Below, piece after piece: positions 1 through 33,893 of a DNA stretch of 33,943 nucleotides (position 1 is the stretch's first letter; each line of letters starts with the position of its first letter). The stretch is taken from positions 1 through 33,943 of the IMG/VR virus record IMGVR_UViG_3300034522_000041; one strand, given 5' to 3'. Source of the stretch: a virus. The position numbers were made by a program, and so were the translations under genes. The notes beneath the pieces were generated by a model that searched no databases, was not told the DNA's origin, and worked only from the letters and a program-made list of their open reading frames with translations.

Positions 1-259
1 CCGTGGGTAACTCCGCTTCGATCTTTTCCAGGCGCGAGAGCGCCAACTGCACGCTGATCTTCTCATTCGGCAGATCGACACTGGCCATAGGGTTCCTCGC
101 CGCCAGCGCCCGCAGTTGCTGTTTCGCGATGCTCACATTGCTGTGGTAATCGATCATCGCATTGCTCATCTCCTCCGCGCGCTGACGCTCCCAGTTACCC
201 AGGGCGGCCAACAGCAGCGGGAAAATCACCAAGACGGCGACGAGTTTTAGAGCGTTCAT
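1..259 (-). CDS. Membrane-anchored protein of unknown function, 3' part outside the window
   Basis: An open frame starts at ATG 259-257 on the minus strand and runs off the left edge with no stop, giving 86 codons. The N-terminus is one hydrophobic segment (about residues 4-20, rich in L, V and A) followed by a charged, probably helical stretch (WERQRAEEMSNAM, then KQQLRALAARN). This looks like a signal anchor with a periplasmic or coiled-coil domain. I do not recognise the family. It lies outside the prophage, so it is probably a host gene or part of the older relic region. The start is the only Met before the hydrophobic segment. Confidence 0.6.
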   Translation of the reverse strand, partial: MNALKLVAVLVIFPLLLAALGNWERQRAEEMSNAMIDYHSNVSIAKQQLRALAARNPMASVDLPNEKISVQLALSRLEKIEAELPT

Positions 260-415
260 GGGAATCCGTTCGGGACGCTGGGGGATGTTGGTTATACCGA
301 AAAGGGTTGGGGCTGGGCAAAGTGCTTTGCATACGTTTGGCGGTCAGAGCATCTGATTGCTGCCGATGCGAGAACATGGGAAGTCATATCCCGAGCCTAC
401 GAACAATTGAAATGA

Positions 416-529: not shown

Positions 530-536
530 GTCGGAG

Positions 537-626
537 GCGGACGAGGAACGCCAGCAGGCTCAGATCAGCGTGAGCAAAGGCGTGGGAAATTTTCGGTCGC
601 TGTTCGTGAACATGTCGGGGGGCTAG
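537..626 (+). pseudogene. Relic fragment of a phage portal gene (middle part)
   Basis: The plus-strand frame reads DEERQQAQISVSKGVGNFRS then LFVNMSGG and a TAG stop at 624-626. It matches the intact prophage portal at 10324-11355, which has DEENLREQISGSKGVGNFRS then LFLNIPGG at about residues 205-235. Nothing of the N-terminal half is left, and the homology stops exactly where the immunity-gene insert begins. It is a remnant of another P2/HP1-type phage, on the opposite strand from the intact copy. What is seen: near-identical peptide. Inference: an older prophage occupied this locus. Confidence 0.8.
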
Positions 627-814
627 AATCGCTATCCTATCTTTAACTATTTGTTTTTGAGTATTTGGAATTTAGATGTGTCGCATTTTTCGCACTTTTA
701 GTCATGTTAGCAAAAGTTCTAGTCAGCTGTATGATGATGAGGGGGTTTGAAAAAAGTCGCTTATTCATATGAGATATCAACTCTTGGTATAAATGCATGG
801 GAAGGGTGTTGGGC

Positions 815-1141
815 ATGGAAAAAAGCTACTATTTGAAAAATCTAATTATTGGGCTGGTAATTTTTACGATTTGCGCATTCGTATTTAAATCAGATGCTGA
901 TGCAGCAGTATTTTTTTTGATTTATGGCATTAATGCGTTCTTGTTTCCGTTTGCCAAGCGTCTAGTCGAAGACTTGGTATTTCGTTATACATCTAAAGAT
1001 TTTTGGAGGTCGGGCCCGTTAAGGACCGGTGCTGCAAATGGTGGGTATGCGCTTTTATATGGCTTTTATTTTGCGCTGGCTTTTCCACTTGGTTTATTGT
1101 TTTTTATAAGATTTTGTATTAAGAAAAAGTCTGCCATGTAG
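815..1141 (+). CDS. Colicin-E1-type (pore-forming bacteriocin) immunity protein
   Basis: A 108-aa very hydrophobic protein with three predicted membrane segments. From memory of the colicin E1 immunity family it shares the start (YYLKNLIIGL; colicin E1 immunity has YYIKN), the centre (P-[FY]-[AS]-K followed by DFW/DFF) and the end (ALAFPLGLL; colicin E1 immunity has VLAIPFGLL). Such proteins sit in the inner membrane and block the channel domain of a cognate colicin. The ATG at 815 is preferred over 797 because GAAGGG lies 8 nt upstream. The gene is AT-rich against its surroundings, a sign of transfer. It is followed by a convergent remnant that looks like the bacteriocin end, which is the colicin E1 gene arrangement. 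No database search was possible. Confidence 0.7.
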   Translation: MEKSYYLKNLIIGLVIFTICAFVFKSDADAAVFFLIYGINAFLFPFAKRLVEDLVFRYTSKDFWRSGPLRTGAANGGYALLYGFYFALAFPLGLLFFIRFCIKKKSAM

Positions 1142-1153
1142 GCGGACTTTTTT
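1124..1153 (+). terminator. Rho-independent terminator of the immunity gene
   Basis: A-tract plus AAGTCTGCC, a 5-nt loop (ATGTA), GGCGGACTT and a T-run form a stem of about 12 pairs with one G-T pair. The hairpin begins inside the last codons of the immunity gene. The A-tract and T-run make it potentially bidirectional, serving the convergent bacteriocin relic as well. Confidence 0.85.
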
Positions 1154-1162
1154 ATGGGGTTG

Positions 1163-1309
1163 CTATGGGAGTTTTGTTTTTCTAACTAATGCATCATAAA
1201 TCAGAGCGCCCGTGGTAGCGATCAAGCGCCAGAGTGCCCAGAGGATTTGCTGCGATAAACCCAAGCACCTCACTAACTTGGGCTGTTGCTGCGACGTCAA
1301 GTAAAAACG
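1163..1309 (-). pseudogene. Frameshifted C-terminal remnant of a probable pore-forming bacteriocin
   Basis: On the minus strand the frame reads DVAATAQVSEVLGFIAANPL then GTLAL. After a 1-nt shift near 1221-1230 it continues IATTGALIYDALVRKTKLP with a TAG at 1165-1163. A long hydrophobic hairpin followed by a short charged tail is how colicin E1/Ia-type channel domains end (compare the colicin E1 SYIDKNKL tail). It sits convergent and immediately downstream of the immunity gene, the typical order of colicin-E1-type loci. Everything upstream is gone, replaced by the repeat at 1301-1345. The bacteriocin identity is inference from position, hydrophobicity and tail, not from a strong motif. Confidence 0.45.
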
Positions 1310-1315
1310 GTGTCG

Positions 1316-1345
1316 GTAAAAACGGGGTCAGCCCCCTTTCTTCTC
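1316..1345. repeat. 30-bp GGGGTCAG-palindrome repeat, copy 1
   Basis: This 30-nt unit differs from the unit at 1557-1586 at only two positions. Its core is an imperfect GGGGTCAGCCCC palindrome followed by CTTTCTTCTC. A partial tandem copy of its first 15 nt (GTAAAAACGG plus a diverged end) precedes it at 1301-1315. GGGGTC(A/T)GACCCC elements of this type are scattered in Pseudomonas genomes and often lie beside REP-associated (Y1) transposases; that link is general knowledge, and no transposase is present here. Confidence 0.7.
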
Positions 1346-1360
1346 ACTGTCGGGTCGCAT

Positions 1361-1491
1361 GCCGGAGAATACGGTCGGGGTTTGGGGATGTTGAGAAGAT
1401 TGATTGGGTTTATATGGTTGATGAGCTATGGCCGATTACGCGGTTGTTTTTCAGGTGAATGAAACTTTGCTTCTTGATAGAGGCTTCGGCT
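1361..1491 (+). pseudogene. Relic fragment of a phage portal gene (C-terminal part, two frameshifts)
   Basis: Three short reading-frame pieces match the end of the intact portal in order: PEN in one frame (1364-1370), then SGFGDVEKIDWVYMVDELWP plus ITRLFF in the next, then QVNETLLLDRGFG in a third, ending at TGA 1489-1491. The intact protein has PENSAGFGDIEKIDRVYTSN, EIRPICQLF and SQLNDTLRDDRR. About 47 codons between this piece and the fragment at 537-626 are missing, and the immunity/bacteriocin insert lies in their place. The gene is dead through two frameshifts and a deletion. Confidence 0.8.
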
Positions 1492-1753: not shown

Positions 1754-1801
1754 ATATGGTGCCGGCACCAGGAGTCGAACCCGGGACCTACTGATTACAA
1801 G
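1754..1801. repeat. attL: attL: 48-bp direct repeat, displaced 3' end of tRNA-Thr
   Basis: These 48 nt are identical to 33815-33862. They hold the T-arm, acceptor 3' strand and CCA of tRNA-Thr (minus strand), up to the anticodon loop. At this end the sequence breaks from the tRNA directly after the anticodon-loop part, so this copy is non-functional. It defines the left boundary of the prophage. Confidence 0.95.
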
Positions 1802-2928: not shown

Positions 2929-4077
2929 CTAAGTCTGCGAGGCGTTCACCAGGGGCACGCTCAGGTCATAGATGTCCATCATTGCCTCGTCCCGGTGGCC
3001 GCTTGCCTCTTGCTTGTCTGCCCGATTACCCACCGTGTCGGTAATGCCCCGACGTTTGAGGTCATGCAATCCAAAGCGCTGCTCGGCGGTGATAGTGCCG
3101 TCGGCGATCGCTAAGGTGATGAACCGTTGCCAGGCGGTGTCCAGGCTGGATTTACGCAAGGGGCCGCCATGGCTGGCCACGATCAGGTAACGGCGCTCGG
3201 GCCGCAACGGAATCACCGTCGACTTGCTGGCCCACACCTTGGTTCGATAGGCCTTTGCCCCGTCCCAGGCCGCCCGCAGGCGCGGCGTCCAGCGCACAAT
3301 ATTGTCCCGGCTACCCTTGCGCCGATTGGTCAGGATGCCCTCGGCCAATTCGTGGGCATCGGTCAGGGTGATTGTTTCAATACCGCGCAGTCGGCACAAA
3401 TAGCCAATCTCCATCACGTAGCTCAGGTACTGCGGACAGCCGCCTTTCTCGTTCCTGGCCAAGCGGCCGAATGCCAAAGCGCGGTCGACCAGATCGTCCA
3501 TGACCTGGTGCCCCGGTAGCCGTCGGCGTTTGCGCTCCACCGGCGCTTCGATGCCCTGTGCCGGGTTGACGTCGAGGAACCCTCGATTACGGCCCCACTG
3601 CAGCACACGGCGCAGGTAGCGCAACACGTGCGCCGCTTTGGAGGGAGTCCCCTCGTCAGCCAGCCGGTCGACGATGCGCTGGATCAGCGCGGCCGTGAAC
3701 TTCTTCACCTGCAGATCGCCCAGCGGCTTGCCCAGTTTGGTAGGGATGGCCAGCAGCACGTCACGCGAATAGCAGTAGTCGCCATGGGTGTTGGGGCTGA
3801 GCTTTTTGTAGCGATCGCTCAGGTGATATTGCGTACAGACGTAGCGCAACGTGCCCTGGTCGACGCCCGAGGTCTGCTCCATGATCTGGTGCAGCTCGGC
3901 CAGGGTGACGTCGGCGGGCGCGACGTTACGCCGTCGCTGTTTACCGTGCTCGTCGTAATGCAGCGTGTACCACACGCCGGCGTTGCGATGATCAAAGTAA
4001 ATAGCCGCTGGGAGAGCGGCCTGATCGACATGACTGGGGATGTGCGGATTATGTTTCCGCTTGCGTGCTCGCCTCAT
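2929..4077 (-). CDS. int: Tyrosine-type site-specific integrase
   Basis: A 382-aa tyrosine recombinase that integrates and excises the prophage at tRNA-Thr. The N-terminal third carries arm- and core-binding regions. The catalytic domain shows Arg228 (CRLRGIE), His338 in GLHDLKRRG, His361 in SGHRDE and the nucleophile Tyr370 (MDIYDLS). The usual H-x-x-R arginine is read here as HDLKR, with Lys at the exact position and Arg next to it. I have seen this variation in other phage integrases. The gene starts within the stop of the DUF4224-type gene (overlap 4074-4077), so both are translated together. It points towards attL, leaving room for the att arm sites at both ends. Confidence 0.97.
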   Translation of the reverse strand: MRRARKRKHNPHIPSHVDQAALPAAIYFDHRNAGVWYTLHYDEHGKQRRRNVAPADVTLAELHQIMEQTSGVDQGTLRYVCTQYHLSDRYKKLSPNTHGDYCYSRDVLLAIPTKLGKPLGDLQVKKFTAALIQRIVDRLADEGTPSKAAHVLRYLRRVLQWGRNRGFLDVNPAQGIEAPVERKRRRLPGHQVMDDLVDRALAFGRLARNEKGGCPQYLSYVMEIGYLCRLRGIETITLTDAHELAEGILTNRRKGSRDNIVRWTPRLRAAWDGAKAYRTKVWASKSTVIPLRPERRYLIVASHGGPLRKSSLDTAWQRFITLAIADGTITAEQRFGLHDLKRRGITDTVGNRADKQEASGHRDEAMMDIYDLSVPLVNASQT

Positions 4078-8130: not shown

Positions 8131-8496
8131 TTACGAGTTGGCTAAGCGGTAACGCCCGTTATCCGGTGCGTTGATGATGCGTTCATAGATCAGGCTGACC
8201 GGGATTGCCCAGGCATTGCCGGTGGTAGGGTCAACAATCACCGAGTGGGTGGCGGTGCTGTTGCGGATGTCGAGGCGCTGGCGATCGCGGATTGCGTTCA
8301 TGTCGCTGTAGGCCAGGTGAACCATCTTTTCAGCCATCTGCGTCAGCACATCGTAGTCGGCGACCAAGTGGCGAACGGTTCGAGCAATCAGCTGCTGGTC
8401 GTTGCCCAGGTGTTCGCAATGGTGACGCTCAAGAAAGGCAAGGGCGGCGGCTTTGAGCACGTCCTGATATTCCTGTACTGCCGGCGCATTGTTCAT
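8131..8496 (-). CDS. Helical early protein of unknown function
   Basis: A 121-aa protein. Two long helices rich in A, H and L (KAAALAFLERHHCEHL and QLIARTVRHLVADYDVL) are followed by a small beta-rich end (HSVIVDPTTGNAWAIPV). The start overlaps the stop of the YmfL-like gene by 4 nt (8493-8496), which fixes both the start and the operon. It lies in the leftward early operon between the regulators and the replication gene. Family not recognised. Confidence 0.7.
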   Translation of the reverse strand: MNNAPAVQEYQDVLKAAALAFLERHHCEHLGNDQQLIARTVRHLVADYDVLTQMAEKMVHLAYSDMNAIRDRQRLDIRNSTATHSVIVDPTTGNAWAIPVSLIYERIINAPDNGRYRLANS

Positions 8497-8972
8497 TGGG
8501 CTGCCCCTGATTTGGCGCGGTAGAGGTCAATGGCTGCCAGCACTTCGGCGTGGCGTGCGGCCATGTGCAGGTTGTGTGCATTGAGGATGTGCTCAGCTTC
8601 GGCAGCATTGATGCATCCGTCTGCGAGCGCCTTGGCAATCTCCTGATCAACACAGCCACGCTTTGCAGCGACCTGAACCGACAACGCATACATTTCTACG
8701 ACGTCATTCGTTTCGGGATCCGGTACCGCAACGAACAAGCCGCCATACATCGACGCCACGTAGTTGGGGAAATGCTGCGTGCCTGCTTCCTGCTCGAGCT
8801 GATACAGCTGGGCGTCTGTCAGCGGCCGGCTGTTGTTGTTTTCGTAGGCGTGATTATCGAACTTCTTCAATGCCAAACCGATGCGTGCCGCAGCGCATTC
8901 GCGACCGCCTGGATAGCTGCAGATAATTGCGCTGACGACTTCGCGGCGTGTCTTTAGAACTGGGCTTTTCAT
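8493..8972 (-). CDS. YmfL/CII-like putative regulatory protein
   Basis: A 159-aa protein. Residues 6-75 fit the YmfL/CII-like family of phage regulators: RREVVSAIICSYPGGRECAA, then LALKKFDNHAYENN, then PLTDAQLYQLEQEAGT. Regulators of this type replace lambda CII or Cro next to the repressor in many Pseudomonas and Burkholderia phages. The start at 8972 (MKSPVLKTRR) has AGGGA 10 nt upstream and fits the family. A longer start at 9002 is possible, because that ATG overlaps the stop of the Cro-like gene (TAATG) and would add 10 residues. It is the second gene of the leftward early operon. Confidence 0.8.
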   Translation of the reverse strand: MKSPVLKTRREVVSAIICSYPGGRECAAARIGLALKKFDNHAYENNNSRPLTDAQLYQLEQEAGTQHFPNYVASMYGGLFVAVPDPETNDVVEMYALSVQVAAKRGCVDQEIAKALADGCINAAEAEHILNAHNLHMAARHAEVLAAIDLYRAKSGAAQ

Positions 8973-9001
8973 GTTCTGCTTTTCCCTGATAGTCCGTGCC
9001 A

Positions 9002-9202
9002 TTACTGTGCAATCACGCCGTCTTTGATCCCCAGCAACACGGCGGCTCGATGTGCCTCCCCGCGTCGACCTTTCCGACGACCATTCAAAAGGTCGCTAAC
9101 CAAATTTTTGTTCAGCTGATGGATGCGACTGAATTCCGCAATGCTCATCCCCTGACGATCAAGCGCAGCGCGGGCTTGCTCCGGCGTAACTGGCGCGTGC
9201 AT
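9002..9202 (-). CDS. Cro-like DNA-binding protein (BcepMu gp16-type)
   Basis: A 66-aa protein with one helix-turn-helix: QARAALDRQGMSIAEFSRIH then NKNLVSDLLNGRRKG, followed by RGEAHRAAVLLGIKDG. That tail (G-x-A-H-x-A-A-V-x-L-G-[LI]-K) is typical of the BcepMu gp16 family of phage DNA-binding proteins, which bind operator DNA early in infection. As first gene of the leftward operon, divergent from the repressor, it holds the Cro position. Its stop overlaps the next possible ATG by one base. Confidence 0.85.
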   Translation of the reverse strand: MHAPVTPEQARAALDRQGMSIAEFSRIHQLNKNLVSDLLNGRRKGRRGEAHRAAVLLGIKDGVIAQ

Positions 9203-9289: not shown

Positions 9290-9649
9290 TTGAAAAATTG
9301 TGCGTTGGGTTCTGGGGATGTCCGTTCTACAGGTGACCGCTTGCGCGATGAGCGTGTGCGGCTGGGGTTAAGCCAAGAGGATTTGGCGCAAGCCGGTGGC
9401 GTGAACAGAAACACCCAGGGTAGTTATGAGCGGGGCGCTCGCAACCCAGACACTGCCTACCTTGCTGGCGTCGCCAGCTTGGGCGTCGACACGGTATTTG
9501 TTCTTACTGGGCAAAAGCAGGTCACGGATCTGAATCCAGTGGAAGCTCAAATAATTGAGCAATATCGAAACATTCCAGAGGACGACCAAAAAATGATTCG
9601 TCGGATGCTGTCGGCGATGGCCGCAATGGAGTCTCGCGGTCTGAATTAG
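9290..9649 (+). CDS. XRE-family phage repressor (CI-like)
   Basis: A 119-aa protein with an XRE helix-turn-helix in residues about 15-70: GDRLRDERVRLGLSQEDLA then NRNTQGSYERGARNPDTAYL. The tail (LNPVEAQIIEQYRNIPEDDQ then KMIRRML) probably mediates dimerisation. There is no LexA-type autoprotease domain, so induction is not by classical self-cleavage. The start is uncertain: TTG 9290 with AGAGGGA 4 nt upstream is chosen, and an in-frame ATG at 9224 without a ribosome-binding site would add 22 residues. The frame stays open back to 8996 only because it overlaps the Cro-like gene. It is divergent from the Cro-like gene, as in all such switches. Confidence 0.85.
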   Translation: MKNCALGSGDVRSTGDRLRDERVRLGLSQEDLAQAGGVNRNTQGSYERGARNPDTAYLAGVASLGVDTVFVLTGQKQVTDLNPVEAQIIEQYRNIPEDDQKMIRRMLSAMAAMESRGLN

Positions 9650-9748
9650 GTTGTAACAAACTGTTAGCACTTCCGCCTCTCCCACTGTCCTAAGGCTCTA
9701 AACCGCCCGATAACGTCGATTCATTCATGCACCAATGGAGTCGTACGC

Positions 9749-9946
9749 ATGTTGGATCGAGCAAAATTTGAAAACAATTACAACGAATCTGGTGAATTTG
9801 ATTGGCAGGCGCTCAGCGCGTTGGAGCTACGGTTGATCAAGCTTTACCGGCGCATGTCTGTGGAAGATCAGATATATGTAAGGCGCATGTCGGAAATACT
9901 CTTGGAAACACCTGACTGCCCTGACATCGACAAAGCGATCACCTAA
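9749..9946 (+). CDS. Small protein resembling the repressor C-terminal tail
   Basis: A 65-aa protein downstream of and co-oriented with the repressor, with GGAG 8 nt before its ATG. Its second half, ELRLIKLYRRMSVEDQIYVR then RMSEILLE, lines up with the repressor tail EAQIIEQYRNIPEDDQKMIR then RMLSAMAA (shared E..I..YR....DQ...RRM). It has no helix-turn-helix. It may be a decayed second repressor or a stand-alone oligomerisation domain that could pair with the repressor. The shared pattern is seen; the role is inference. Confidence 0.75.
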   Translation: MLDRAKFENNYNESGEFDWQALSALELRLIKLYRRMSVEDQIYVRRMSEILLETPDCPDIDKAIT

Positions 9947-10008
9947 CGACCTCGCTTGTCCTTACGTTGCACCAGGCGCTGGCCCAGGTGGCTGGCGTTC
10001 CCGCGCTA

Positions 10009-10257
10009 TCACGCTGCCCCCAGCTGATCGAACAGTTCCCGCTGTTTCGCCCGTGACAAATTCTTGAGGCTGTCGAAAAGGAGCCGGTCCATGGCTTGGG
10101 CCGACGGGCTGAGCGTGTGCGAAAACGTCAGATTTGCCACCCAGGTGTGCCCACACGTTGCGTCCAGGCACTGGCAGTACAGTTTGGCGAAGTCATTCGA
10201 AAGCTGATCTCTTGAAGCAATCCGCCCTCTGTGCCCGCACTTACATGTGATCCTCAT
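10009..10257 (-). CDS. ogr: Ogr/Delta-like zinc-finger activator of late transcription
   Basis: An 82-aa protein of the Ogr/Delta family, which binds upstream of P2-type late promoters and recruits RNA polymerase through its alpha subunit. The zinc-binding pattern is CKC near the start and CQCLDATCGHTW 25-35 residues later; the first pair is C-x-C rather than the C-x2-C of P2 Ogr. The start at 10257 (MRITCKCGHRG) is preferred over an upstream one because GGAGGG lies 6 nt before it. The gene lies upstream of and in line with the late genes Q and P only in orientation: it is downstream of portal, 66 nt after its stop. It would switch on the P-Q and O-onward operons. Confidence 0.85.
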   Translation of the reverse strand: MRITCKCGHRGRIASRDQLSNDFAKLYCQCLDATCGHTWVANLTFSHTLSPSAQAMDRLLFDSLKNLSRAKQRELFDQLGAA

Positions 10258-10283
10258 TGCGTCCCTCCCCAGGGCCAGCCAAT

Positions 10284-10314
10284 TGCCACTATTTTGCCAC
10301 ATTATGTAGTGGCA
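10284..10314 (-). promoter_or_regulatory. TGCCAC/GTGGCA operator-like repeats at the ogr promoter
   Basis: Three 6-bp half-sites lie in the 66-bp gap upstream of ogr: TGCCAC at 10284-10289 and 10295-10300, and GTGGCA at 10309-10314. The inner pair forms a dyad with an 8-nt spacer (TACATAAT on the minus strand), and CATAAT within it resembles a -10 box. Regulation of late-activator expression by a repressor binding here is inference. Confidence 0.55.
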
Positions 10315-10323
10315 TTGCCTGCT

Positions 10324-11355
10324 CTAGACACTGGATGTAGTGTTTTCCACTGCTGCTGGCGCTTCTCTCCAGGCAATCCGCCTGTCATCCCGCAAGGTAT
10401 CGTTCAGTTGGCTGAAAAGTTGACAGATCGGTCTAATTTCATTGCTCGTGTAGACCCGATCGATCTTTTCGATATCGCCGAAACCAGCACTGTTTTCCGG
10501 GATGATCCCGGCGAGCGCGGGGTTCATGCGCCAGGCGGCGATCACGTCGTTACGTGTGATGTTCTTGACCTTCTCCAGCTCGTCCTTCGCCTGGAAATCC
10601 CCGACAGGGATGATCTGTACCGCCTTTTCGGCCCCGCCCGGGATGTTCAGGAACAGCGAGCGGAAGTTGCCCACGCCCTTGCTGCCGGAGATCTGCTCGC
10701 GCAGGTTCTCTTCGTCCTTCTCGGTCAGGTTCGGGTCGTTGGTGTAGAACACGTATCCCGCGTGCGCGCCGTTGGCGTAGTAGCGGCGGCGGAACAGAGT
10801 CGCGGCCTCGTTGAGCAACAGGGCCTGCATCCCACCCAGATAGTCCGGCACGCCGTAAATGTCCTGCTCGACGTCGTAATCCATGACGTGCTCGATCTCG
10901 TCCTGGTCGAATTCCATTTCCTTGCCGTTGGGCAGCAACATCACATAACCGCCGTCGACCTTGACCCGCATGTTGATCGCCGGGAGGTGCTGCATTTCCA
11001 GCACCTGGCCCAGCAGGTTGGGCTTGCGATACAGGTACGCCTCGCCAAACACCACGAAGTCCAGCCCAGCGCGCCCGATGGTGGCCACGCTGCAGCCCTG
11101 AGACGGGATGAATTCGCGCAACAACAGGTTGCGCTTGAATTTGGGGATCGCGCCGTGGTGCGCATTAGCGCGCAGCAGCTTGGCCAGCCCTTGGCGGGAT
11201 ACCGGCGGTTTGTAAAGTCGGCCATCCTCCGAAGCGAAAACGCCCAGGTAGTTGCCCATGCTACCAACCAGTACCTGTTCGGGATCTCCGAACGCAAACG
11301 ACCGGGTAGGGGGCTTGGGTTGAATCGGTTGGTCTGTCACTTTTCGCTTGGTCAT
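10324..11355 (-). CDS. Q: Portal protein (P2 gpQ family)
   Basis: A 343-aa P2-type portal, close to the family's usual length of about 345. Twelve subunits form the DNA channel at the capsid vertex where terminase docks. Recognisable stretches include RSFAFGDPEQVL near residue 20, DYLGGMQALLLNEAATLFRR about 165 and GSKGVGNFRSLFLNIPGG about 228, with SAGFGDIEKIDRVYTSNE near 290. It lies 8 nt downstream of the terminase gene in the same leftward operon, as in P2. The region 537-1491 holds decayed pieces of a close relative of this gene. Confidence 0.95.
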   Translation of the reverse strand: MTKRKVTDQPIQPKPPTRSFAFGDPEQVLVGSMGNYLGVFASEDGRLYKPPVSRQGLAKLLRANAHHGAIPKFKRNLLLREFIPSQGCSVATIGRAGLDFVVFGEAYLYRKPNLLGQVLEMQHLPAINMRVKVDGGYVMLLPNGKEMEFDQDEIEHVMDYDVEQDIYGVPDYLGGMQALLLNEAATLFRRRYYANGAHAGYVFYTNDPNLTEKDEENLREQISGSKGVGNFRSLFLNIPGGAEKAVQIIPVGDFQAKDELEKVKNITRNDVIAAWRMNPALAGIIPENSAGFGDIEKIDRVYTSNEIRPICQLFSQLNDTLRDDRRIAWREAPAAVENTTSSV

Positions 11356-16998: not shown

Positions 16999-17668
16999 CA
17001 CCTTCGATCTCGACGTGCGCGGCCTTCTGGGTGCTGAAGAGCAGCTGGCCCTGCTGGAGCTGCCCCCACAACTGCGTCGGCGTCTGCTCAACAACGTGAC
17101 CAAGCGCGTGCGCAGCATGAGCCGCCAGCGGATCCGCGACCAAAAGAACTTGGACGGCACGCCGTTCGCTGCTCGCAAAGGCTCGAGCAAGGGCAAGAAA
17201 AAGATGGAAGCGGGGTTGGGCAAGCTGCTCGACGTCACCCGTATCAGTGCCAACGAAGCCGAGCTGGGCTGGCGCAACGCGCTGACCCGTTGGGTTGCAT
17301 CGCAGCAGCATAACGGTGTGTCCGAGCGCCGCACCGCCGCCCAGATGCGCCAGTGGAACAAGATTCCCGAAGGCCTGGCCGCTACCGAAAAACAGGCCAA
17401 GCGCCTGCGCCGCCTCGGGTTCAAGACCCGCCAGAAGGGCAAAAAAACACTTACCCGCCCATCTGTGGCGTGGATCAAAGAGCACGTGAACTACGCCAAG
17501 GCGGGTCTGCTGATCCGCATCCTGGACGACGAACAAACCGAGTCATCTGGTGCGCAAAGCTGGGACATCACCCTGCCAAAACGCCAGTTCCTCGGCCCCG
17601 GCACCGAGTCAGAAACCAGCTCGCTGGTGAACCTGGTGCTGCAACAAATCCTTAATTCACCCCGTTAA
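16988..17668 (+). CDS. Phage virion morphogenesis protein (P2 gpS family)
   Basis: A 226-aa basic protein with the family's pattern: LRRRLLNNVTKRVRSMSRQR with IRDQKNLDGTPFAARK near residues 30-65, and PKRQFLGPG near the end. P2 gpS takes part in tail completion. This copy is longer than P2 gpS (150 aa) through a central Lys/Arg-rich insertion (TEKQAKRLRRLGFKTRQKGK, about 140-160). The start overlaps the previous gene by 11 nt. Confidence 0.92.
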   Translation: MARSTFDLDVRGLLGAEEQLALLELPPQLRRRLLNNVTKRVRSMSRQRIRDQKNLDGTPFAARKGSSKGKKKMEAGLGKLLDVTRISANEAELGWRNALTRWVASQQHNGVSERRTAAQMRQWNKIPEGLAATEKQAKRLRRLGFKTRQKGKKTLTRPSVAWIKEHVNYAKAGLLIRILDDEQTESSGAQSWDITLPKRQFLGPGTESETSSLVNLVLQQILNSPR

Positions 17669-31311: not shown

Positions 31312-31322
31312 TAATGTCACTG
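31298..31322. terminator. Hairpin between the converging late operon and cargo gene
   Basis: CAGTCACATT, 5 nt, AATGTCACTG makes a 10-bp stem with one mismatch. It spans the stop codons of the spike gene (rightward) and reaches the end of the leftward cargo gene. There is no T-run on either strand, so it is at best a weak bidirectional terminator. Confidence 0.45.
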
Positions 31323-32153
31323 CGAGGCAGGCGGGGTATACATATGGTCGACGTGCTCTGTTTTAATGTACCAAGTGAAAGCTATATCTCTTGCCTTTGA
31401 CTCCCTGAGTATCTTTTCAGAGTCAGGAAAAAGCTTGACATATGAATGTATCAAATGAGCCAAGACCAGTATCCCGCAATTGAGAAAGCTTTCTGCGAAT
31501 CTTTTTTGGGAGTAGATATCGGGTGTGTCACGTATCTGAAGGATGCTTATATAACTCCCGTGAGCGTGATTGCTTAACCCGTTGTATATGTCCCTGAAAT
31601 ACGTAGGATGTATGGCCGCTAGTTCGCTCAAATATTTCCAGCCATCTGCTGGCTTCCACTTCCCTTCTATAATGCTTCTACCTCTCTTTGGTGGATGGGT
31701 CTGGTGGTGGGGGTGTGCCTCAAGCTCCCCAATTATCTGACCGATAGCAACTGCCTCTTGAGCGAGTATTTGCTTGGTTTCTTTCGTGTTAGCGAGCAAC
31801 CTACTGCGGTCTATCAATCCTGCTAAGCGCCATGCCTTGTGACGGTACTGGGTGATTTCTGGATCTTCATTTACGAACACATAGTGGAATGTCAGGTAGC
31901 TTTCAAAAGCCGTCCTTAATAAAACGGAAATTGAGGATATGTCTATATATTCAAAGCTTTCGCCCTGACCGAAATTGAATTGACTGCCATTATAGAGTTG
32001 CTGTGTCGAGGCTATGTTTTTGAATATCTTTGTACACAATACTTGCCCGTCATTTTTCCAATTTGACGCCTGAGTATTTGGCTTGCCTGATTCTGATTCG
32101 ATCAGTTGAAATGTTAAGTAGGTCAGCTGTTGTAGATCATCAACGTAACTCAT
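31317..32153 (-). CDS. AT-rich cargo (moron) gene, DUF5677-like helical protein
   Basis: A 278-aa mostly helical protein on the strand opposite to all late genes. It has much lower GC than its neighbours, the mark of a recently acquired moron. The layout resembles DUF5677-type proteins: SVLLRTAFESYLTFHYVFVN at about 80-100, then DIYNGLSNHAHGSYISILQI around 195-215, then a long C-terminal helical segment (FAESFLNCGILVLAHLIHSY). Such proteins are of unknown function; the S-x-x-A/H-H-G motif recurs. The family link is a visual resemblance. As the gene is unrelated to virion or replication, a lysogen benefit (for example exclusion of other phages) is possible but not shown. Confidence 0.85.
   Translation of the reverse strand: MSYVDDLQQLTYLTFQLIESESGKPNTQASNWKNDGQVLCTKIFKNIASTQQLYNGSQFNFGQGESFEYIDISSISVLLRTAFESYLTFHYVFVNEDPEITQYRHKAWRLAGLIDRSRLLANTKETKQILAQEAVAIGQIIGELEAHPHHQTHPPKRGRSIIEGKWKPADGWKYLSELAAIHPTYFRDIYNGLSNHAHGSYISILQIRDTPDIYSQKRFAESFLNCGILVLAHLIHSYVKLFPDSEKILRESKARDIAFTWYIKTEHVDHMYTPPASQ

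Positions 32154-33814: not shown

Positions 33815-33893
<79 letters not shown>

Follow-up and report, generated by a model that had tools for sequence, protein, structure and literature searches.

Organization of the locus

The window, by which we mean the whole stretch of 33,943 nucleotides that was analysed (IMG/VR virus record IMGVR_UViG_3300034522_000041), begins with the flank of a Pseudomonas-type chromosome, followed by two fragments of a phage portal gene, between which lie an intact immunity gene and the end of a bacteriocin gene. These are followed by the attachment core of a resident prophage, whose integration site, an intact tRNA gene, is found near the other end of the window. 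The features are as follows, with nucleotide (nt) identities and E-values where available.

1-328, minus strand: chromosomal flank, comprising the 5' part of a membrane peptidase gene, which from its sequence we take to be of the M48 type, and its upstream region; 96.6% nt identity to Pseudomonas rhodesiae (locus L001, 3524-3851)
347-415, plus strand: last codons of an MmyB-like helix-turn-helix (HTH) regulator; 87% nt identity to L001 5179-5361
449-496, no strand assigned: 48-bp dispersed sequence, with further copies on plasmids and at other places in the genomes of Pseudomonas
530-623, plus strand: portal relic piece 1; codons 207-237 (206.7-237.0) of the portal of Pseudomonas genome G146, 83% nt identity
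815-1141, plus strand: intact orphan immunity gene of 108 codons, colicin E1/microcin immunity family (PF03526, E = 7.6e-9)
1123-1153, plus strand: strong hairpin with T run after the immunity gene, meeting the bacteriocin end (-18.1 kcal/mol, z = -4.0)
1163-1301, minus strand: remnant of a pore-forming bacteriocin, C-terminal ~50 codons with one frameshift, from profile, tblastn and DNA alignment to G146
1316-1345, plus strand: 30-bp direct repeat, copy 1
1347-1457, plus strand: portal relic piece 2; codons 277-313 of the G146 portal, 85% nt identity
1557-1586, plus strand: 30-bp direct repeat, copy 2; a single hybrid copy in P. rhodesiae
1754-1801, plus strand: attachment (att) core of the resident prophage on the relic side, equal to the 3' end of tRNA-Thr; 48 bp identical to 33815-33862
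2929-4077, minus strand: integrase of the resident prophage (phrog_1, E = 9.7e-34)
10324-11355, minus strand: portal of the resident prophage (phrog_68, E = 2.9e-121)
33818-33893, minus strand: intact tRNA-Thr (TGT), the integration site (ARAGORN)

Some of these features have relatives elsewhere. The MmyB-like regulator is complete in P. rhodesiae (L001 4393-5250), where it matches PF17765 and HTH_3, and on one plasmid the 48-bp sequence adjoins IS66 and group II intron genes. The 30-bp direct repeats carry a GGGGTCAGACCCC palindrome and enclose portal piece 2; as a dispersed mobile family they were rejected, being absent from 48 related genomes. Of 81 related integrases, 60 have the tRNA-Thr core next to them, always in one orientation, and a DUF5677 gene at the far end of the resident prophage (31317-32153) is probably cargo.

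Two collinear portal pieces flank an immunity-bacteriocin cassette

When the resident portal was compared with positions 1-1800 of the window using tblastn, two plus-strand matches were obtained in the right order, at 483-623 (residues 195-241, E = 3e-10) and 1375-1449 (residues 290-314, 60% identity, E = 2e-6). A profile of 87 portals ranked both pieces at the top of the window (E = 3.6e-10 and 1.8e-5), and no other window peptide reached E < 1. We numbered the relic codons on the G146 portal, which is the closest intact one. As the pieces span codons 207-237 and 277-313, about 39 codons have been lost; a frameshift lies near codon 291 in piece 2, and the stretch beyond 1457, up to ~1491, is a weak extension only. 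The sequence-only reading had placed the pieces at 537-626 and 1361-1491 on the plus strand, and both the pieces themselves and their collinearity in translated alignment held, with slightly shifted ends. Its loss of ~47 codons and its ~735 bp between the pieces are replaced by ~39 codons and ~723 bp, while the presence of an immunity gene in that interval stands. Both pieces are 81-85% identical in nucleotide sequence to the portal clade of genomes G146 and G409, other portals being far lower. Since positions 1-1754 contain no capsid, tail, replication or integrase genes, we regard this region as a relic and not as a prophage. An exact search of the relic DNA against viral contigs gave zero matches, and a distal att copy bounding the relic was sought and rejected, as similarity did not exceed that of shuffles.

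The immunity gene and the bacteriocin remnant are convergent, and both lie between the two portal pieces. The immunity protein scores 35.7 bits against a curated cut-off of 25 for PF03526, and its start is most likely the ATG at 815, judging from the first methionine common to P. rhodesiae. For the bacteriocin, a profile built on five pore-forming C-termini was run against 2039 six-frame peptides, and two adjacent remnant pieces came out on top, in a matching position in each of the window, P. rhodesiae and the viral contig L002. Singly these pieces are weak in the profile search (best E = 0.034); the intact G146 bacteriocin matches them in the window with E = 8e-6 by tblastn, and what had been noted as a probable bacteriocin end is thus a real one. 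Neither a mobile element nor a target duplication was found at the cassette ends in the window.

The relic is chromosomal and predates the resident prophage

The locus in P. rhodesiae DSM 14020 shares its flanks with the window; its tRNA-Thr is uninterrupted, and it carries the relic at 89% identity with no resident prophage. The relic is therefore chromosomal and older than the resident prophage. In the viral contig L002, the relic is 99.7% identical over 996 bp and adjoins a different prophage at the same att, 71-78% similar in nucleotide sequence to that of the window.

The P. rhodesiae copy retains parts that the window has lost. Before piece 1, on the plus strand, L001 5549-5730 aligns with a junction of terminase end and portal start (76% over 181 bp), placing the end of a terminase gene directly upstream of the portal on the same strand; this stretch is deleted in the window. 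A terminase protein profile gave no match in L001 because the fragment is frameshifted, and it was DNA similarity that revealed it. The P. rhodesiae relic lacks portal codons ~24-207 as well as piece 2, and the locus keeps a fragment of a tRNA-Thr island integrase. The single hybrid repeat in this species suggests that piece 2 was lost there by a deletion between the 30-bp repeats.

Sister loci identify the portal clade and its orientation

Our survey covered 399 Pseudomonas genomes searched with the relic DNA as query and 398 searched with the G146 portal. Genomes G146, G379, G409 and G235 carry a distinct P2-like portal clade with 91-100% amino acid identity, the next relative being at 78%. 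G409 holds a complete prophage of this clade, in which tail and capsid genes, terminase, portal, cargo, early genes, primase and integrase are followed by tRNA-Met; the integrase adjoins the intact tRNA, toward which the portal is oriented, and from this layout the orientation of the relic is known. At tRNA-Thr, decayed right arms comprising portal, cargo and early genes are collinear in G146, G379 and G235 and partly so in G231. The portal reads toward tRNA-Thr, as in the relic, in five sister loci (G146, G379, G235, G231 and G247), whereas in the portal clade of the resident prophage all 20 prophages with portal, integrase and att in view read the other way relative to the tRNA. Together with the P. 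rhodesiae relic, these loci substantiate the earlier proposal that a related phage with its portal in the opposite orientation had occupied tRNA-Thr; an intact portal at this site, which that proposal had suggested seeking in other strains, is complete in G146 and G379.

Prophages at tRNA-Thr in four loci (L138, L156, L176 and L182), which stood out by an exceptional orientation, were considered as the source and rejected, because their portals belong to another clade and are ~40% identical. In two of these contigs (L176 8883-13998 and L182 11935-16905), the tRNA-Thr core is flanked by the integrase on one side and a parA-like gene on the other, with a portal and terminase of another clade, a layout that suggests circular or episomal phage forms.

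The complete portals of G146 (L240 8140-9132) and G379 (L241 7050-8036) stand alone, with no capsid or tail genes nearby. Between the two, dN/dS is 0.04 at a dS of 0.4, a value that would fit recent decay in each of them independently, or else some reason for their being kept.

The portal-adjacent slot and the origin of the relic

In G146, a terminase stub, the portal (8140-9132), the immunity gene (9370-9705) and the bacteriocin gene (9717-10874) follow one another, with tRNA-Thr at 17525; portal, immunity gene and bacteriocin are all intact. The bacteriocin matches PF01024 with E = 3.4e-52, and the nearest solved structure to its killing domain is pyocin S5 (E = 2.7e-51). As the cassette directly follows a complete portal, it is native phage cargo and not the product of a chance landing within a gene. 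The same slot after the portal holds other genes elsewhere, encoding 127 aa in G379, 252 aa in G235, 171 aa in G409 and 106 aa in G231.

Taken together, these data make it very probable that what remains here is the right arm of an earlier P2-like prophage at tRNA-Thr (TGT), now decayed, in which an orphan immunity gene was retained. Such a phage would have integrated at this tRNA with its portal reading toward it, and its arm would have comprised the terminase end, the portal and cargo, the slot being held by a pore-forming bacteriocin gene and a convergent immunity gene. Most of the phage would then have been deleted, the bacteriocin would have shrunk to ~50 terminal codons and the portal to two pieces, possibly in that order, and the immunity gene would have been left intact. 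Several observations count against this reading. The portal is the sole surviving phage gene in the window relic, which has neither a trace of an integrase nor a distal att copy; the only full prophage of the clade that we found, in G409, is at tRNA-Met and not tRNA-Thr; a portal fragment near tRNA-Thr in G099 has the opposite orientation; and constraint on the immunity gene has lately been weak, with dN/dS of 0.48 between the window and L001.

How the cassette came to lie between two portal pieces admits more than one explanation. The sequence-only reading held that cargo had landed in, or replaced part of, the portal gene; in this form, the immunity-bacteriocin cassette would have been inserted alone mid-way into a dead portal gene, with removal of about 40 codons. 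The pieces are indeed collinear and share a strand, and the cassette falls exactly in the gap. We nevertheless consider such an insertion unlikely: the G146 pair sits just downstream of a complete portal, the slot carries other cargo in G379, G235, G409 and G231, and the cassette ends show no mobile element or target duplication. With slot contents that vary by locus and a cassette that follows a whole portal in G146, a separate mid-gene landing is not needed, and of the earlier interpretation the P2-like phage at tRNA-Thr is kept, and the landing of cargo in its portal finds no support in the form proposed. A better candidate, to which we give slightly less than an even chance, is that the downstream piece represents a duplicate portal 3' end that has been displaced, and not the original end, cargo with a portal end of its own having entered by recombination in the portal. 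G379 offers a model, in that a complete portal is followed by the 127-aa cargo gene and then by a second partial portal copy in the same direction (codons 220-314 and on). Moreover, DNA similarity among the portals of the clade ends at about codon 313 in most copies, and every end is different. The arrangement in the window, portal piece, cassette and portal piece, can be read as a G379-like architecture that lacks the 3' end of the first copy. G146, however, has no second portal copy, and the sequence after piece 2 in the window has no match among the sister loci.

Least probable, in our view, is that a rearrangement between the 30-bp repeats joined two pieces, the second being of independent origin. 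The repeats (1316-1345 and 1557-1586) exactly bracket piece 2, and the P. rhodesiae locus, with its one hybrid repeat, lacks that piece, but a simple deletion between the repeats fits the P. rhodesiae state, the absence of the repeat from the 48 related genomes leaves no known mobile family, and both pieces derive from one portal clade.

A further possibility is that phages of this clade swap cargo by recombination within the portal, each cassette bringing its own portal 3' end, the old end being left as a scar beyond the cargo and lone portals at tRNA-Thr being kept as a landing arm. This would account for the persistence there of complete lone portals, and partial portal copies would then mark past cargo exchanges; we judge the proposal improbable as it stands.

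Conservation of the immunity gene

An unbroken reading frame for the immunity gene is found in the window and in P. rhodesiae, G146 and G359; of these four, G146 alone has an intact bacteriocin as well. In G359, only a C-terminal part of the bacteriocin is left, corresponding to residues 319-371 of its G146 counterpart; with an immunity gene next to this truncated gene, the locus (L247 5627-6179), which is near tRNA-Thr and has no portal, is a second orphan case. For deep pairs, dN/dS of the immunity gene is 0.10-0.15, and in the alignment of the window with L001 the gene has no indels against 7 in ~375 bp of flank (p of about 0.01), from which we conclude that it has been under constraint, though perhaps only weakly of late, given the dN/dS of 0.48 for the window and L001. 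The protein has no match among phage records and distant matches only among plasmids, mostly of enteric bacteria. Convergent and intact bacteriocin and immunity genes occur in G103, and they are likewise found on opposite strands in a Serratia and an Arsenophonus plasmid, while on an Enterobacter plasmid no bacteriocin is annotated next to the immunity gene. The product is probably made as an inner-membrane protein that shields the host from the matching bacteriocin, and by analogy with its family it would likely do so by blocking pore opening in that membrane.

Relation to known systems

In its portal homology (PHROG 68), the order of terminase and portal, integration at a tRNA and variable cargo beside the portal, the relic resembles P2-like Pseudomonas prophages, from which it differs in being a fragment whose capsid, tail, replication and integrase genes are gone. 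The PF03526 immunity protein and PF01024 pore domain are those of the pyocin S5 and colicin Ia, Ib and E1 systems; unlike these, the window has only the last ~50 codons of the bacteriocin and an immunity gene that stands alone. A defective remnant with a bacteriocin gene at a tRNA gene has been described as prophage 04 of P. fluorescens Pf-5 (PMC2647930), where, in contrast to the relic, the tRNA is tRNA-Pro, a lectin-like bacteriocin (llpA1) survives and tail genes are kept. Grounded prophages have been discussed as sites of gene gain (PMC6379469). Orphan immunity genes without a bacteriocin are known from Pseudomonas and are expected to blunt attack by relatives (PMC5358913); here, unlike in those cases, the sequence still reveals both the truncated partner and the phage context.

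The process is ordinary genome decay, traceable in unusual detail by way of sister genomes, in which intact and decayed loci show a phage-borne bacteriocin-immunity pair turning into a chromosomal orphan immunity gene. A traceable origin for such a gene is useful because orphan immunity genes are expected to weaken bacteriocins deployed against Pseudomonas (PMC5358913). The data also point to a portal-adjacent cargo slot in this P2-like clade, the content of which changes with almost every genome.

Other occupants of the tRNA-Thr site

The tRNA-Thr (TGT) site is a general hotspot for islands. One of these, in G040 (L107 4628-6850), includes an S-type pyocin of 740 aa with a DNase domain, and islands with two recombinases are found in G006, G046, G032 and others. 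In islands at this site (L203-L207), a P4-type integrase adjoins the tRNA and there is a second Integrase_1 gene with a small partner, the recombinase genes lying next to defence-like genes.
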